Assembly: GCF_009834565.1 (NCBI RefSeq)
Contig: NZ_CP019428.1
Coordinates: forward strand, 3,410,001-3,474,000
Source of the DNA: Pseudomonas sp. R76
GTDB lineage: Bacteria > Pseudomonadota > Gammaproteobacteria > Pseudomonadales > Pseudomonadaceae
Direction: 5' to 3'
DNA length: 64,000 nt
The translations under genes were made by a program, and so were the position numbers. This document shows, piece by piece, positions 18,740 to 24,857 of this stretch (positions within the stretch are counted from its first letter, which is position 1; every line of letters begins with the position of its first letter). The notes beneath the pieces were generated by a model, which did not search any database, was not told the DNA's origin, and worked only from the letters and a program-made list of their open reading frames with translations.

Positions 18740-19150
18740 TCAATTCCCTCTGTAGGTAGAGAAACCGTAGGGGCTGAGCAGTAATGGGATGTGGTAGTGC
18801 GCAACGGCACCGTCTACCTCAAAAATGACGGGTACCTCTGGAAAGAAACTTGAGACGTTGTGCGCTTTGAACCACTCACCGGTTTTAAAGGTGACACGGT
18901 AGATGCCTTTCTCCAGGGCCTGGCCATCGGGGTACAGCCCGGGAATACGGCCTTGCTCGTTTGTCGCGGCGCTGTTGAGCATGTTCCAGTTCTTGCCGTC
19001 CTGTTTTTCCAGCGTGACATTGACGCCAGGGGAGGGCAGACCATCTTGTAAGTTGAGTACATGCACGCTGAGCGGGTTTCCTGCCGCTAACGCCAGTGAC
19101 GATACGACACTCAATACAAGGCCCGCGAAGAACGTTTTTAATCCAGTCAT
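18740..19150 (-). CDS. hiuH: 5-hydroxyisourate hydrolase (transthyretin-like), periplasmic
   Basis: ATG 19150 follows AAGGACA. The 136-residue product has a Sec signal peptide (LKTFFAGLVLSVVSSLALAAG, cleavage after ALA), then LSVHVLNLQDGLPSPGVNVTLE, the N-terminal HIUase motif with His, a central GIYRVTFKTGEWF and the C-terminal HYHIPLLLSPYGFSTYRGN. The last four residues are YRGN where HIUases usually end YRGS. The enzyme hydrolyses 5-hydroxyisourate, an intermediate of urate oxidation, here in the periplasm. In E. coli the same gene lies beside the HprRS (YedWV) genes, as it does here. It follows a GlcG-like gene after 10 bp. Confidence 0.92.
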   Translation of the reverse strand: MTGLKTFFAGLVLSVVSSLALAAGNPLSVHVLNLQDGLPSPGVNVTLEKQDGKNWNMLNSAATNEQGRIPGLYPDGQALEKGIYRVTFKTGEWFKAHNVSSFFPEVPVIFEVDGAVAHYHIPLLLSPYGFSTYRGN

Positions 19151-19160
19151 GATGATGTCC

Positions 19161-19664
19161 TTAGTTTTTGACAGTCGGTAAAATTTTGTTGATAGCGGCC
19201 AGTGCGCAACCTTCATCGTTTGCTGCACCGCCGGCACCGGCCACTCCGATCGCGCCAATGACTTGCCCTTCAAACAGCAACGGCACGCCGCCGCCCAGCA
19301 GTAACAGCTCATGCAGGGTGTTGAGGTTTTCCGCATCGGGTGTGCTGCGGGCACGCTCTGCCAATAGTCGTGTTGGCGTTTTGGTCGACAGGGCGGTATA
19401 GGCTTTGCGTTGGGCGGCTAATGTGTTGTGTGGCCCCACGTTATCGTCGCGCTGCAAGGCGACTAAATTGCCCCCACGGTCGACAATGGCAGCAACGCCT
19501 GTACGGCCATCGGCATGACAGGCTGTCAGCGCGGCATTCAGCAAATCGTTGGCCATTGCCAGTGACACGTCGTTGCGCTGCAGCACTTGATCCGGGGCTG
19601 CAACGGCGAGCGCTGAGTTCATTGCGAGTGACAGCAGCAATGAGGTCGATAGGCTTATACGCAT
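19161..19664 (-). CDS. Secreted heme-binding/GlcG-HbpS family protein
   Basis: ATG 19664 is preceded by AAAGGACA. The 167-residue product has a signal peptide (ISLSTSLLLSLAMNSALAVAA) then the GlcG/HbpS fold: DVSLAMANDLLNAALTACHADG, VAAIVDRGGNLVALQRDD, PGGxP-like LLLGGGVPLLFEGQVIGAIGVAGAGG and a final DEGCALAAI. HbpS binds heme and senses redox stress in Streptomyces; other members are of unknown function. It is first in a two-gene operon with hiuH and reads divergently from the two-component genes, across a regulator box. Confidence 0.87.
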   Translation of the reverse strand: MRISLSTSLLLSLAMNSALAVAAPDQVLQRNDVSLAMANDLLNAALTACHADGRTGVAAIVDRGGNLVALQRDDNVGPHNTLAAQRKAYTALSTKTPTRLLAERARSTPDAENLNTLHELLLLGGGVPLLFEGQVIGAIGVAGAGGAANDEGCALAAINKILPTVKN

Positions 19665-19742
19665 GCTTTGTCCTTTGTGTGGTCTGGCTGAGTCATAGCC
19701 AGGCATGATGCCCCGTGCACTCCGTCAGAATGATTGCCTGAT

Positions 19743-19760
19743 GATTACCAAGATGTAATG
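19743..19760. promoter_or_regulatory. HprR/CusR-like response-regulator box
   Basis: GATTACCAAGATGTAATG is an inverted repeat, ATTAC-N6-GTAAT, in the 146-bp gap between the glcG-hiuH operon and the response-regulator gene. From memory, the E. coli HprR box reads CATTACAAAATTGTAATG, with which this agrees at 14 of 18 positions. It could control both directions. Confidence 0.7.
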
Positions 19761-19810
19761 TGCCAAAACGCTCGGGCGCGCTAGCCTATGCTCCAGTTCC
19801 GGAGGAAAAG

Positions 19811-20482
19811 ATGCGTATCCTGGTCGTAGAAGATGAAGCGAAAACAGCGGATTACCTGCACAAAGCCCTGACTGAATCGGGCTACGTGGTGGAGGTCGCC
19901 CTGGATGGCCTGGAGGGCCAGTATCTGGCGCAGGAAAGCGAGTTCGACCTGATCATCCTGGACGTCATGCTGCCGGGCCTTGACGGCTGGCAATTGCTGC
20001 AGATTATCCGGCGCAAGTGGCAAACCCCGGTGCTTTTTCTTACCGCCAGAGACTCTGTGGAGGATCGGGTCAAAGGGCTCGAGTCAGGGGCCGACGATTA
20101 CCTGGTCAAACCCTTTTCCTATGCCGAGTTGTTGGCTCGCGTACGTACGCTGCTGCGCAGGGGCCCGCCCCGTGAGGTCGAGCAGTTTCTGGTTGCAGAC
20201 CTCAGCCTGGATCTGTTGCGACGCAAGGTCACGCGCCAGGGTGAACGCCTGACCCTGACCAACAAGGAGTTTGCCCTGTTGCACCTGCTGGTCAGCCGTG
20301 AAGGAGAGGTGCTATCGCGCTCGTTGATTGCTTCGCAGATCTGGCAGATGAACTTTGACAGTGATACCAATGTGGTCGACGTCGCCATCCGGCGACTGCG
20401 CGCCAAGGTTGACGATCCTTACCCGCTCAAGTTGATACAGACAGTGCGTGGCATCGGCTACATGCTTGAGGTGCAATCCTGA
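19811..20482 (+). CDS. OmpR-family response regulator, HprR/CusR-like
   Basis: GGAGG lies 6 bases before ATG 19811 (an in-frame ATG at 19760 would lie within the operator). The 223-residue protein has a receiver domain (acidic pair in VVEDEA, phospho-Asp51 in IILDVMLPG, Lys100 in LVKPF) and a winged-helix domain ending [30 protein letters not shown], as in heavy-metal/oxidant regulators CusR, CopR and HprR (YedW). Neighbouring hiuH on one side and a YedY-like molybdoenzyme on the other match the targets of E. coli HprR, favouring a hypochlorite/peroxide regulator over a copper one. The kinase gene follows at once. Confidence 0.9.
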
Positions 20483-20505
20483 AACTGTTTCCGCGCGCCC
20501 TGAGC

Positions 20506-21849
20506 TTGCGCCTGGCGGTCATGTTCGCGTTAGTCAGCGCGTTGCTGCTGGGCTCCATTGGTTTTTATCTTTATCAGTCGTTACAGCGAGAAATCGCGTG
20601 GCGCGATGACCAGGCCCTGCTCGGGCGCCTGGTGCGCATGCAGGCGTTGATCAACGACAGTGTCAGCGTCGAGCAACTCAGAAATCGGCCCAAGCTATAC
20701 GAAAATATGCTGGGTAATCGCGACAACCTGCTGTGGATTATCGATGACACCGGCCAGGTGCTGATCGAAATCAACCCCGTCAGTATGAGCTTGCCCACGT
20801 TACCGGCCGCAGCCCAGGCTCAGTTGGGTGATGGTGACACTTCGGTGTCGGTGCGGCTTGCCTGGCAGCATGTCATGCAGGGTGATCGCGGCTTGACCCT
20901 GATTGCTGGCAAGTTGTTGAGCGAGCGCGAGCAGATGCTGGGGGCCTACCGACTCAAGCTCTGGCTCGCGATGTCGGTCGGCGCGTTGCTGGCTTTTGTG
21001 CTCGGCGGGTGGGTCAGCCAGCGAGGCTTACGACCTGTGCGCCTGCTGGCGAAGCGTGCTGCCGCCATTGATGCACACCACCTGCATCTGCGGTTGGATG
21101 AGTTCAGCGAATTCAGTGAGCTGCAAGTGCTCAGCCAGGCGCTTAATCAAATGCTCGCACGCCTCGAAGAGGGCTTCGCCCAGCTCTCACGATTCTCAGA
21201 GGATCTCGCCCATGAGATGCGTACCCCGCTCACTAACCTGATGGGGCATACCCAACAATCGCTCAGGCATGGTCGTTCAATTGAGGACTACCAGAACCTG
21301 CTGGTTTCCAATCAGGAAGAATATGAGCGTCTGGCGCGAATGATCGACAGCATGCTGTTTCTCGCTCGTAACGAGCAGTCGCATGCATCGGTAAGTCTTG
21401 AGCTCATCAACCTGCACGATCTGGTCGAGCAACTGTGTGAGTATTTTGAAGGCGTGGCGCAAGAGCATGATGTCACGCTGATCAATCAGGCCCATGACCA
21501 CTTGCGTGCTGATCCGGCCTTGATCCGTCGAGCATTGGCTAACTTGCTGTCCAACGCGCTACGTTATGGCGCGACTGGTACCGCGGTGACTATTAGCAGT
21601 GTGGTATGGGAGGACAGGATCGAAGTCACAGTGCACAACCAAGGCCCGCCGATTTCAGCGCAACATCTACCTCGACTGTTTGAGCGCTTCTACCGGTGCG
21701 ACCCGTCACGCAACCAGCCGGACGACTCGGGTGGTTTGGGGTTAGCAATCGTCCGCTCAATCATGCAATTGCATGGCGGTCGGGTAACCGTTGAGAGCAC
21801 TGGAGCCGGTACGCGCTTTTGCTTGGTGTTTGTGCTGCAGAATGCTTGA
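20506..21849 (+). CDS. Sensor histidine kinase, HprS/CusS-like (heavy-metal sensor family)
   Basis: Two TM segments (about 6-24 and 145-165 from TTG 20506) bracket a periplasmic domain of about 120 residues (LGRLVRMQALINDS, LYENMLGNRDNLLW). Then come HAMP, the phospho-acceptor box SEDLAHEMRTPLTN, N box ALANLLSNALRYG and G box GGLGLAIVRSIM. It would phosphorylate the regulator encoded just before it. There is no ATG: TTG 20506 lies 23 bp past the regulator stop, but the same frame extends to CTG 20479, overlapping that stop and giving [15 protein letters not shown], which looks like a natural N-terminus. The true start may be this rare CTG. Confidence 0.9.
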   Translation: MRLAVMFALVSALLLGSIGFYLYQSLQREIAWRDDQALLGRLVRMQALINDSVSVEQLRNRPKLYENMLGNRDNLLWIIDDTGQVLIEINPVSMSLPTLPAAAQAQLGDGDTSVSVRLAWQHVMQGDRGLTLIAGKLLSEREQMLGAYRLKLWLAMSVGALLAFVLGGWVSQRGLRPVRLLAKRAAAIDAHHLHLRLDEFSEFSELQVLSQALNQMLARLEEGFAQLSRFSEDLAHEMRTPLTNLMGHTQQSLRHGRSIEDYQNLLVSNQEEYERLARMIDSMLFLARNEQSHASVSLELINLHDLVEQLCEYFEGVAQEHDVTLINQAHDHLRADPALIRRALANLLSNALRYGATGTAVTISSVVWEDRIEVTVHNQGPPISAQHLPRLFERFYRCDPSRNQPDDSGGLGLAIVRSIMQLHGGRVTVESTGAGTRFCLVFVLQNA

Positions 21850-21964
21850 GCGAATGCCATGGGGCTTATGTTTTGAGGTTTTTTCTTGGTTTGTTTCAAT
21901 GGTCTTCACCTCATTAAAACCTCAGGTTGCGTCTTGATGCCATCGCACCTGCGAGCGCTATCGA

Positions 21965-21988
21965 GAAAACCCGCCGAGGCGGGTTTTC
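21965..21988. terminator. Terminator hairpin between the convergent kinase and mrpX-type genes
   Basis: GAAAACCCGCC-GA-GGCGGGTTTTC, an 11-bp perfect stem with A and T runs inside the arms, so it can stop transcription from either side. Confidence 0.87.
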
Positions 21989-22022
21989 CAGACACAGCAC
22001 AATTTTGCTGTAATGCACCGCT

Positions 22023-22304
22023 TTACTGAGACATGTCATTCTTTTTCATGTCGTCTTTTTTCATGCCGTCATTGGACATGGAATCTTTCTTCATCGTGTC
22101 TTTGCCCATGGTGTCTTTTTTCATCGTGTCCTTACCCATGGTGTCTTTGTGCATTTCATCCTTTTTCATCGTGTCCTTTTTCATCGTATCGTGGGACATC
22201 GTGTCTTTCTTCATCGTGTCATTGCTCATCGTATCGTCGGCGTGTACAACCGCGACGCCCACTGCCAGGCACATACCTAGGATTGCAGTCGTTAACCTTT
22301 TCAT
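22023..22304 (-). CDS. mrpX: Methionine-rich pentapeptide MxKDx repeat protein, periplasmic (MrpX-like)
   Basis: The 93-residue product has a signal peptide (MKRLTTAILGMCLAVGVAVV, cleaved after HA), then about fourteen five-residue repeats of the type DTMKK/DTMSN/DTMGK, ending NDMSQ. Each repeat has one Met, so the mature 70-residue chain carries 14 regularly spaced methionines and no aromatic residues. In Azospira suillum a protein of this kind, MrpX, is a periplasmic hypochlorite scavenger whose oxidised methionines are reduced by YedY1; here a YedY-like enzyme and a cytochrome b lie just upstream on the same strand. The repeats are written in near-identical 15-base units, so length may vary between strains. 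Confidence 0.88.
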   Translation of the reverse strand: MKRLTTAILGMCLAVGVAVVHADDTMSNDTMKKDTMSHDTMKKDTMKKDEMHKDTMGKDTMKKDTMGKDTMKKDSMSNDGMKKDDMKKNDMSQ

Positions 22305-22374
22305 CGTGAAGCTCCTTGAGACTCAGGTTGCGAATAAGCGCAGCCCGGGCCGCGCAATGGGGTTGCCACGGGCG

Positions 22375-23160
22375 TCAGCTGCCACCGAACCAGTTGTAGC
22401 CCTGGTCTTCCCAGTAACCACCCGGGTAGGTATTAGTGACGAAAATCGCTTGAATGTGCTTTGGGTTCTTATAACCAAGCTTGGTGGGCATGCGCAGCTT
22501 CATTGGAAAGCCATATTCACGGGGCAGTACGGCACCGTCGTAGGTCAGCGTCAGTAGCGTTTGCGCATGCAGCGCCGTGGCCATGTCGATACTGGTGTAG
22601 TAATCGTCGGCACATTTGAAGCCGACGTACTTTGCGTCGGTATCTGCGCCAACGCGCTTGAGGAAATCACTGAAGCGGATGCCTCCCCATCGGCCAATGG
22701 CGCTCCAGCCCTCGAAACAGATGTGCCGGGTGATCTGATCGCTCTGTGCCATGGCACGCAGTTCCTCAAGCTTCCAGCTGCGCTTGTCGGCGACCATGCC
22801 GGTTACTTCCAATCGGTAGGTGTCCTCATCGACGGCAGGCGCTTCGTCGATGCCGTAGAAGGCATTGAAGGGGAATGGCCGCGTAATCATCGATTCTGCG
22901 TAGGTAGGGGCCATGGCGTTCGGGTTGAACAGCCAGCCCTGCACCCTGTCATTGAAGCGCGACATGGAGGACAGCGCCGTTTCAACGTGATCGTTATCGG
23001 TGATATTGCAGCCGGACAGCATGGCGACACCGCCCAGGGTCAGGCTACGCAGCAGGAAGGCGCGCCGTGAGCGATCTTCGACCTGGAGCGAAATAATTTT
23101 CCGTGCTTCCTTCAAAATGGACGACTCATCCAGCACTGGGCGTTGTTCACGCTTCCTCAT
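22375..23160 (-). CDS. Molybdopterin-dependent oxidoreductase, YedY1/MsrP-like (sulfite oxidase family)
   Basis: The 261-residue protein has an N-terminal SRRAFLLRSLTLGGVAMLSGC, a twin-arginine-like signal that ends in a lipobox (Cys51), so it may be a Tat-exported lipoprotein. The sulfite oxidase fold follows: RLEVTGMV, ITRHICFEGWSAIGRWGG with the molybdenum-ligand Cys148, and GFPMKLRMPTKLGYKNPKHI. The relatives YedY/MsrP reduce methionine sulfoxide in periplasmic proteins. It overlaps the cytochrome b gene by 4 bases, its likely electron source, and precedes the Met-rich repeat gene, its likely substrate. Confidence 0.9.
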   Translation of the reverse strand: MRKREQRPVLDESSILKEARKIISLQVEDRSRRAFLLRSLTLGGVAMLSGCNITDNDHVETALSSMSRFNDRVQGWLFNPNAMAPTYAESMITRPFPFNAFYGIDEAPAVDEDTYRLEVTGMVADKRSWKLEELRAMAQSDQITRHICFEGWSAIGRWGGIRFSDFLKRVGADTDAKYVGFKCADDYYTSIDMATALHAQTLLTLTYDGAVLPREYGFPMKLRMPTKLGYKNPKHIQAIFVTNTYPGGYWEDQGYNWFGGS

Positions 23161-23795
23161 ACGCGCTCCTTATGGCCGACAATCATGGCCAATAACGTCT
23201 TTGGAACCAGTGCGACCATCACCAAATGCACGGCGATAAAAGCCACCAACAGAGACATTGCAATGAAGTGCAGATGACGAGCGCTGTCGTAGCCGCCCAG
23301 CAGTTCACGTAGTAGCGGGAACTGGACTGATTTCCACAGAACCAACCCGGAAATCACTAGAGCAATAATGTCGAGCATCACAAACAGATACGCCACACGC
23401 TGCACGTGGTTGTAATGGCCAATATCGTCATGCCCCAATCGCCCATGGAGTGCAGACCACAGGTCATGAAAAAAGCCTTTGGGTGATACAGGAAAAAAAC
23501 GTCGCGACAGACGGCCGCTAAAAAGATTGAAAAGCAGGTAGAAAAGGCTGACGACGACCAACATCCACATTGCTGCGAAATGCCATTGCAACGCGCCCCC
23601 CAGCCAGCCCCCCAGGGTGATCGACGTGGGGAAATTAAAATCGTAAAGGGGAGAGGCGTTATAGATACGCCATCCGCTGGTGATCATTACCAGCACCGCT
23701 AAAGCGTTCAACCAATGGGTCAATCTCAACCAGGCGGGATGGCTGCTTTGTGGGTTCACAGAAGCAGCACGGGTTGTTTCAGGTGCGGCTTGCAT
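23157..23795 (-). CDS. Cytochrome b561-type membrane subunit (electron donor to the molybdoenzyme)
   Basis: ATG 23795 has GGAG 9 bases upstream; the frame begins at TTG 23810. The 212-residue protein has an N-terminal soluble stretch, then four membrane helices with paired histidines: LRLTHWLNALAVLVMITSGWRIY, WHFAAMWMLVVVSLFYLLF, YNHVQRVAYLFVMLDIIALVISG and RHLHFIAMSLLVAFIAVHLVMV. This is the di-heme cytochrome b/b6 type seen in hydrogenase and thiosulfate reductase complexes, and in the YedZ1 of MrpX systems. It would pass quinol electrons to the enzyme whose gene it overlaps. Confidence 0.9.
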   Translation of the reverse strand: MQAAPETTRAASVNPQSSHPAWLRLTHWLNALAVLVMITSGWRIYNASPLYDFNFPTSITLGGWLGGALQWHFAAMWMLVVVSLFYLLFNLFSGRLSRRFFPVSPKGFFHDLWSALHGRLGHDDIGHYNHVQRVAYLFVMLDIIALVISGLVLWKSVQFPLLRELLGGYDSARHLHFIAMSLLVAFIAVHLVMVALVPKTLLAMIVGHKERV

Positions 23796-23984
23796 TGGAG
23801 GAGACTCCAAACAGGAATAACGTCATAACCTTTTGATCGAGTGTAGACGCTCACTCAAAACACGATGCTCCTTTGAGGTGGGCGAAGCGTTCCGTACGTC
23901 CAATATGCCTATCAGGCAGATAGAAAGGCCTTCGGCCAGCTAGGCTTGTAACGTCAGGAGGGCGGTATCAGTGAGGGTACGTCT

Positions 23985-24857
23985 ATGCCAACCGTAAAAA
24001 CTGCTCTTGTACTTGCTGGTGGTGGGAGCCTTGGTGCGGTTCAGGTCGGAATGCTACAGGCGCTCGTTGAGGCTGAGGTCTCAGTTGACTTGGTGGTTGG
24101 AGCGTCGGTCGGCGCCATCAACGGTGCCTACTTCGCAGCCAGACCGAATGCCAAAGGCGTGAGCGAACTTGCGGACTTCTGGCGCAGCTTACGTAAGTCG
24201 GATGTGTTTCCGTTCTCGGCGCTCGATACCCTCAAGGGCATTATTAATCGACGTGGGCACTTGCTGAGCGCATCCGCATTGCATCGTTTAGTGAGCCGAT
24301 CACTGCCGGTCAAATTGATCGAAGACACCGTGTTACCGCTTTATATCGTCACCACCAATTTGCTCAGCGGTGCCGAAGAGCTTCTGTCCAGTGGCAGTGC
24401 TGAACAGGCTTTGCTCGCCAGTGCTGCGATTCCGCTGGTGTTTCCCAGCGTGCGAGTCGCAGACAAGTTCCTGGTCGATGGCGGAGTCAGCAGCAATACG
24501 CCGATTGCCAGTGCGGTGGCATTGGGGGCAACACGGGTTGTGGTGCTTCCTACCGGATTCGGTTGCGCTTGCCCATGTCCGCCCAGTGGACTCGTTGCGC
24601 TGGCCTTGCACACGCTCAATTTGATGAGCATGCGTCAACTGGTGCGTGACATCGAGTTGTACCGCGCACGCGCAGCTATCCATGTAGTGCCGCCGCTATG
24701 CCCACTGGACGCTTCTGTGTTCGATTTCAACCAGACAGACAAACTGCTGCAACGTGCTTATCTGTCAACCCAGGCCTGGATAGAAGAGGGCGGATTGATT
24801 CGCGACGGGATACCCGATTCGTTACTGGCCCATACTCATCATTTTGGTGAAGGGTGA
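23985..24857 (+). CDS. Patatin-like phospholipase (RssA-type)
   Basis: The 290-residue protein has all patatin motifs: the oxyanion loop LAGGGSLGAVQVGML, nucleophile motif GASVG (Ser in VVGASVGAINGAYF, near residue 41) and catalytic Asp in DGG (FLVDGGVSSNTPI, near residue 165). It is a serine acyl hydrolase of cytoplasmic type with no signal peptide. It reads divergently from the cytochrome b gene and its stop overlaps a TetR remnant, so its 3' end was probably joined to other DNA by a rearrangement. Confidence 0.92.
   Translation: MPTVKTALVLAGGGSLGAVQVGMLQALVEAEVSVDLVVGASVGAINGAYFAARPNAKGVSELADFWRSLRKSDVFPFSALDTLKGIINRRGHLLSASALHRLVSRSLPVKLIEDTVLPLYIVTTNLLSGAEELLSSGSAEQALLASAAIPLVFPSVRVADKFLVDGGVSSNTPIASAVALGATRVVVLPTGFGCACPCPPSGLVALALHTLNLMSMRQLVRDIELYRARAAIHVVPPLCPLDASVFDFNQTDKLLQRAYLSTQAWIEEGGLIRDGIPDSLLAHTHHFGEG

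Follow-up and report, generated by a model that had tools for sequence, protein, structure and literature searches.

A conserved divergent hiuH-glcG module with an HprRS-like two-component pair in Pseudomonas sp. R76, adjoining a mrpX-yedY1-cytb unit

The two-component system HprSR is known from Escherichia coli through its msrPQ output. Its kinase HprS senses by two periplasmic methionines, with a transmembrane cysteine transducing the signal (PMC10151825), and the sequence CATTACAAAATTGTAATG between hiuH and hprR represents the boxes of both CusR and HprR (PMC9302797). In uropathogenic E. coli (UPEC), the pair OrhK/OrhR directly activates cytb-yedY-mrpX (PMC8550376), and in Streptomyces the protein HbpS modulates the kinase SenS and is itself controlled by SenR (PMC3754957). 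Here we describe a locus within a 64,000-nucleotide stretch of Pseudomonas sp. R76 (the window, starting at position 3,410,001 of contig NZ_CP019428.1; the genome searched comprises 6.8 Mb in 2 contigs), where hiuH and glcG, the latter encoding an HbpS-like protein, face the genes of an HprRS-like response regulator (RR) and histidine kinase (HK), which are followed by mrpX, yedY1 and cytb. No description of such a glcG-hiuH/HprRS-like module was found in the literature, judged by titles and the beginnings of abstracts among the papers listed. We favour, with a probability of about 0.74 and on sequence evidence, the explanation that a self-contained HprSR-type module would control itself and glcG-hiuH via one box, the cytb-yedY1-mrpX trio being independent of it.

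Module organisation, distribution and regulator box

The module consists of the following features, given in window positions:
18740..19150, minus strand: hiuH, 5-hydroxyisourate hydrolase-like/transthyretin-like (PF00576; TIGR02962 above cut-off)
19161..19664, minus strand: glcG, HbpS-like protein (PF03928)
19743..19760, no strand: predicted palindromic response-regulator box GATTACCAAGATGTAATG, with the same core as the E. coli HprR/CusR box
19782..19787, plus strand: putative -10 element (TAGCCT) for RR-HK, located 21 nt beyond the box and read from the sequence
19811..20482, plus strand: RR, response regulator of the OmpR family, HprR/CusR/CopR subfamily (TIGR01387, CopR/SilR subfamily)
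20479..21849, plus strand: HK, HprS-like sensor histidine kinase with Met77 and Met153 (TIGR01386, CopS/SilS subfamily)

All seven genes of the locus lie where the first-pass annotation of this DNA had placed them, and each was recognised by curated families. The genes glcG-hiuH are divergent from RR-HK, as hiuH is from the regulator gene in E. coli. The presumed HK start is a CTG overlapping the RR stop codon; in the alignment, 23 of 53 named relatives have Met and 19 have Leu at the first HK codon.

The divergent module hiuH-glcG|RR-HK is conserved. A kinase search over 298 genomes of the genus, evaluated on the best 150 matches listed, revealed glcG within 3 kb of all 78 best matches, 31 of which show 64-100% and 47 show 47-52% identity; GlcG, seen by the first-pass annotation as an addition to the proposed hybrid, is thus a conserved member of the module. 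The next 72 matches listed (about 40-46% identity) have glcG within this distance in two cases only (G158 and G173). Counting these two, such a kinase is present at 80 of the 111 glcG places in the genus sample. Among 40 module loci fetched, every one showed hiuH-glcG facing RR-HK, and none carried trio genes in its 12-14 kb stretch.

Ten of the 31 remaining glcG places were fetched as well; seven face a receiver-only gene and three adjoin other regulators. At the former (L148-L154), glcG-hiuH face in 7/7 cases a lone CopR/HprR-like open reading frame of 121-127 amino acids, which is without a DNA-binding domain and without a kinase match at the seven loci. The best upstream box scores there range from 10 to 29, and as the facing frame is receiver-only, the regulator that reads this box may have its gene at another place.

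Among named genomes, the best 80 of at least 521 stretches encoding a glcG relative comprised 60 with RR, HK and hiuH, a figure which shows breadth and not frequency because the glcG seeds came from module loci. The others have RR and HK only (1), hiuH only (6, among them the short and perhaps truncated contigs L181 and L221) or none of these genes (13). No match to the trio or to MsrPQ was found within about 5 kb at these 80 loci. Five of the 60 are enterobacterial (three Pantoea, Enterobacter and Shimwellia), with glcG-hiuH beside an HprRS-like pair whose regulator is 70-72% identical to HprR and whose kinase is 48-49% identical to HprS of E. coli. In named Pseudomonas loci, glcG genes 86-94% identical to that of the window were found; a profile search passed by 7,659 proteins added no distant members, the best 120 being all close relatives, and a class-wide HprS search over 114 genomes yielded no enterobacterial entry.

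The gap between glcG and RR contains an 18 bp palindrome with the invariant halves ATTAC and TGTAAT, which in the window reads GATTACCAAGATGTAATG and matches the E. coli HprR/CusR box (PMC9302797). It was found in 41/41 gaps, 50-53 bp upstream of the RR start, the gap sequences being all different; since they come from related genomes, part of this conservation is common descent. A related palindrome, GATGACAATATGGTCATC, is present in five of six enterobacterial glcG loci and a variant in the sixth. A scripted -10 pattern occurs at an offset of 21-22 in 21 of the 41 gaps and is absent from the other 20. The exact box pattern occurs at two places in the genome, compared with one for a control pattern, and the second of these lies about 1.3 kb upstream of a paralogous pair at 4.54 Mb. 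Because the palindrome is conserved, we infer that RR binds 19743-19760.

Sensor kinase, signal and effector

The sensing methionines of E. coli HprS are presumably residues 72 and 153. In an alignment of 121 kinases including 100 module kinases (93 distinct), these residues align with Met77 and Met153 of the window kinase. Among the distinct module kinases, Met77 is present in 93/93 and Met153 in 91/93 (100/100 and 98/100 with repeats), and over all kinases aligned no other Met, His or Cys position is conserved at 80%. No sensor His or Cys reaches 80% across the 93 distinct module kinases; a small enterobacterial kinase group shows two His at 83%. Furthermore, the alignment of the window kinase with HprS covers residues 27-437, and that with CusS begins only at residue 160. 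The first-pass assignment of an HprRS-like pair beside hiuH is well supported by the box, which is of the HprR type, and by sensor methionines placed as in HprS.

According to the favoured explanation of a self-contained module, an oxidant in the periplasm, most probably reactive chlorine, would oxidise Met77 and Met153 of the kinase, as judged from E. coli HprS. The kinase would then phosphorylate the regulator, as expected from its family, and the regulator would bind 19743-19760, so that RR-HK and glcG-hiuH would rise together and the periplasm would be filled with GlcG and HiuH. Here, GlcG would serve as effector in the place of MsrPQ, binding or removing an oxidation product, haem or iron, and mrpX-yedY1-cytb would repair methionine sulfoxide as a unit in its own right, expressed from a separate promoter.

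Several observations weigh against this explanation. The glcG genes that seeded the list of named genomes came from such modules, and 7 of its 80 loci belong to the same genomes as other fetched loci. Allowing up to two mismatches, the box occurs 7 times in the window against 4.4 expected, which is not above chance. The methionine pair is also present in the type-B kinases described below, which have conserved histidines, and in the paralogue of the same genome, and is therefore not unique to the module; one Met of OrhK sits one column from the first Met column. The transmembrane cysteine of E. coli HprS, presumably Cys165, is not conserved, its column holding Met in the window and mostly Val or Leu elsewhere. 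RR is slightly nearer to CusR (61% identity) than to HprR (57%), and the regulator and kinase trees have long branches, leaving orthology unsettled. Finally, a copper signal is possible, because in E. coli the box serves CusR as well (PMC9302797).

An alternative is that the pair is a copper sensor of the CusRS/CopRS type with glcG-hiuH serving copper stress, which we consider unlikely without dismissing it. Both proteins fall into metal subfamilies (TIGR01387 and TIGR01386), RR is 61% identical to CusR, copper induces hiuH in E. coli, where CusR uses the same box (PMC9302797), and the methionines could bind copper as well. However, the sensor lacks conserved His or Cys and carries the methionine pair of HprS, neither residue of which is found in E. 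coli CusS in the kinase alignment.

GlcG has a signal-peptide-like N-terminus (by eye) and contains Cys49, His79 and Cys153. Among proteins of solved structure, Streptomyces HbpS is the closest to it (E 1e-17), and as for HbpS with SenSR, this PF03928 protein is encoded with a two-component pair. The cysteines are coupled: 25 loci were usable out of 30 fetched, the window's own being among those left out, and both cysteines occur in 17, only the second in 2 and neither in 6 (p 0.00016). As many HbpS-like proteins share this Cys pair, it does not mark a special sensor, and a role of the GlcG cysteines as a special redox switch was rejected.

More distant GlcG homologues (36-44% identity) adjoin unrelated regulators. 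At L155:3629-7832, a kinase gene, a LuxR-type regulator gene and a glcG homologue stand in line. The genes msrB and msrA are divergent from these, and their products have N-termini resembling export signals (by eye). Similar layouts were found at L156 and L157 by tblastn or from open frames only.

These LuxR-type loci, of which L155 has msrB and msrA alongside, together with the relatedness to HbpS, which modulates SenS and is under SenR control (PMC3754957), could be taken to mean that GlcG is a third signalling component gating the kinase as HbpS gates SenS. We find this improbable, though worth keeping in mind: the Cys pair is widespread in the family, and glcG also occurs without any pair found, namely with the box at L220, L222 and L224 (within 5 kb) and with hiuH at L190, L230, L235 and L237, which fits an effector better. 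We thus prefer, by analogy, GlcG as an effector that would bind or remove an oxidation product, haem or iron, rather than as a pure sensor; it is taken as an effector because it stands in the place of E. coli MsrPQ.

HiuH likewise has a signal-peptide-like N-terminus (by eye). The C-terminal signature of 5-hydroxyisourate hydrolases is YRGS, and the window protein ends in YRGN instead (hiuH 3' end, 18740-18754); among 103 distinct C-termini read with a stop, YRGN was found in 63, YRGS in 38 and another sequence in 2. Because of this C-terminus, hydrolase activity of HiuH should not be assumed. At L133:1868-3255, a 233-bp unit repeated six times with 95% matches reaches into the 3' end of hiuH.

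The genome encodes canonical MsrPQ near 5,747,388, 2.3 Mb from the module, with MsrP 54% identical to that of E. coli. No box was found near these genes at 0 or 1 mismatch, and the msrPQ output of HprSR is, judged by position only, not found here.

The adjoining cytb-yedY1-mrpX trio

Beyond the kinase gene lie the following features:
21852..21922, no strand: junction between module homology and trio homology, from the homology limits in relatives
22023..22304, minus strand: mrpX-like MxKDx repeat protein, 93 aa with 16 Met (TIGR02953), separate unit
22375..23160, minus strand: yedY1-like molybdoenzyme (PF00174), separate unit
23157..23795, minus strand: cytb, cytochrome b561-type membrane partner (PF01292), separate unit

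The trio shows the features of an MrpX-YedY1 system, an MxKDx peptide with a YedY-like enzyme and a cytochrome b. In Azospira, MrpX-YedY1 reportedly combines a Met-rich MxKDx peptide and an MsrPQ-like pair under control of an extracytoplasmic function (ECF) sigma factor and an NrsF-type anti-sigma factor. A Cys of the yedY1-like enzyme aligns with a Cys of E. coli YedY (1xdq) that is presumably the Mo ligand. Because the genome has separate canonical MsrPQ, YedY1 is not its MsrP orthologue.

The 3' end of mrpX lies about 170 bp beyond the HK end. Nevertheless, the seven genes look like two units, hiuH-glcG|RR-HK and cytb-yedY1-mrpX, rather than one. Module relatives are homologous up to 21,831-21,851, and trio relatives, where they retain mrpX, from 21,922-21,966 onwards; in relatives the trio stands elsewhere with its own upstream sequence. 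The regulator box that the first-pass annotation proposed to seek upstream of 23795 was not found, the best score in 23,700-24,000 being -2.4 compared with 27.6-33.3 for the matrix sites.

Close yedY1 homologues (at least 76% identity) stand at 47 places, spread over 46 of the 298 genomes, and 13 genomes have both such a gene and a module kinase (odds ratio 1.13, p 0.72 with the best 78 kinases; 1.09 and 0.86 with 80). The two lie within 20 kb of each other at two places only, in the window and in G209 (10 kb), and closely adjoin only in the window's genome. The module is absent from 20 fetched stretches with such close, type-A trios (19 genomes), that of G209 lying just outside its stretch. 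As part of a patatin gene and the segment after it are retained beyond the kinase of G209, the neighbourhood of module and trio was probably shared by the species of G209 and that of the window. On the whole, mrpX-yedY1-cytb looks like a separate unit that adjoins the module in this genome by chance.

An element GCGTCTACACT upstream of cytb is common to 5 of 21 aligned trio promoters, those of the window (23796-23985), L062, L063, L065 and L076. Most other close trios carry a different block, AACTTTACGTGAGGATTTGG, with small changes. The type-A trio of L081 is divergent from a distant pair (RR 40%). Among 20 type-B yedY loci fetched, 18 adjoin another CopRS-like pair; at these loci (L083, L085-L101), a second yedY-cytb family (yedY about 54-61% identical) stands next to a CopRS-like pair of its own, with both His and Met conserved in the sensor.

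The first-pass annotation had proposed a hybrid of two hypochlorite defences under one regulator, with two-component instead of SigF/NrsF control of the trio. SigF/NrsF control was rejected, as no match to NrsF (PF06532) was found genome-wide with a positive Caulobacter control, SigF itself not being searched for. A trio under a two-component pair is already known from UPEC OrhK/OrhR (PMC8550376) and is not new. Joint control of module and mrpX operon is unsupported, because the trio has no box, forms its own homology block with its own upstream sequence and does not co-occur with the module, and the hybrid regulon was rejected on box, synteny and co-occurrence. That the pair acts on both hiuH-glcG and the trio through a weak or indirect site in this strain is very unlikely, in spite of the 170 bp spacing, the UPEC precedent (PMC8550376) and the pairs beside type-B loci and L081, given the box score of -2.4, the 13 shared genomes among 78 with the kinase and 46 with close yedY1, and the type-A stretches lacking the module.

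Comparison with known systems

Should GlcG and HiuH, instead of MsrPQ, be the output of HprSR-like systems in many Pseudomonas and further Proteobacteria, the chlorine response of these bacteria would have an unstudied effector, and the HbpS-like family, whose function is uncertain, would gain a testable role. The locus also cautions against placing neighbouring methionine-repair genes in a regulon on proximity alone. One can speculate further that, in Proteobacteria, oxidant-sensing two-component systems have a general periplasmic partner in HbpS-like GlcG, which unrelated regulators of the HprR/CusR and LuxR types, the latter beside msrA and msrB, would have recruited on at least two occasions. 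GlcG would then be a third component that informs the kinase of haem, iron or chlorine damage, as a Gram-negative counterpart of HbpS-SenS-SenR, and would replace MsrPQ as the HprSR output; we put this forward as a tentative and rather doubtful idea.

HbpS differs from GlcG in lacking both cysteines in the alignment, and to our knowledge no HiuH is associated with Streptomyces HbpS-SenS-SenR. The likeness lies in a secreted HbpS-like protein paired with a two-component system, which controls it in Streptomyces (PMC3754957). Brucella bcrXQP resembles the trio in combining a Met-rich MxKDx peptide with an MsrPQ-like pair, and differs in being controlled by an ECF sigma factor and an NrsF-type anti-sigma factor (PMC8315932), the latter without a match in the window's genome. 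UPEC c3566-c3568 shows the same order of cytb, yedY and a Met-rich gene (cytb 57% and yedY 59% identical); unlike here, the trio is a direct target of OrhK/OrhR (PMC8550376), whose regulator and kinase are 36% and 24% identical to those of the window.

E. coli CusRS shares a regulator 61% identical, which also uses the E. coli hiuH box (PMC9302797), and differs in the CusS sensor, which was not alignable by BLAST and is without both methionines. Compared with E. coli HprSR, glcG stands here in the place of msrPQ, the transmembrane Cys165 is not conserved and HiuH ends in YRGN. In agreement with HprSR, the locus has a divergent hiuH, the same palindromic box, an OmpR-type regulator 57% identical, and an alignable kinase with both Met columns conserved.

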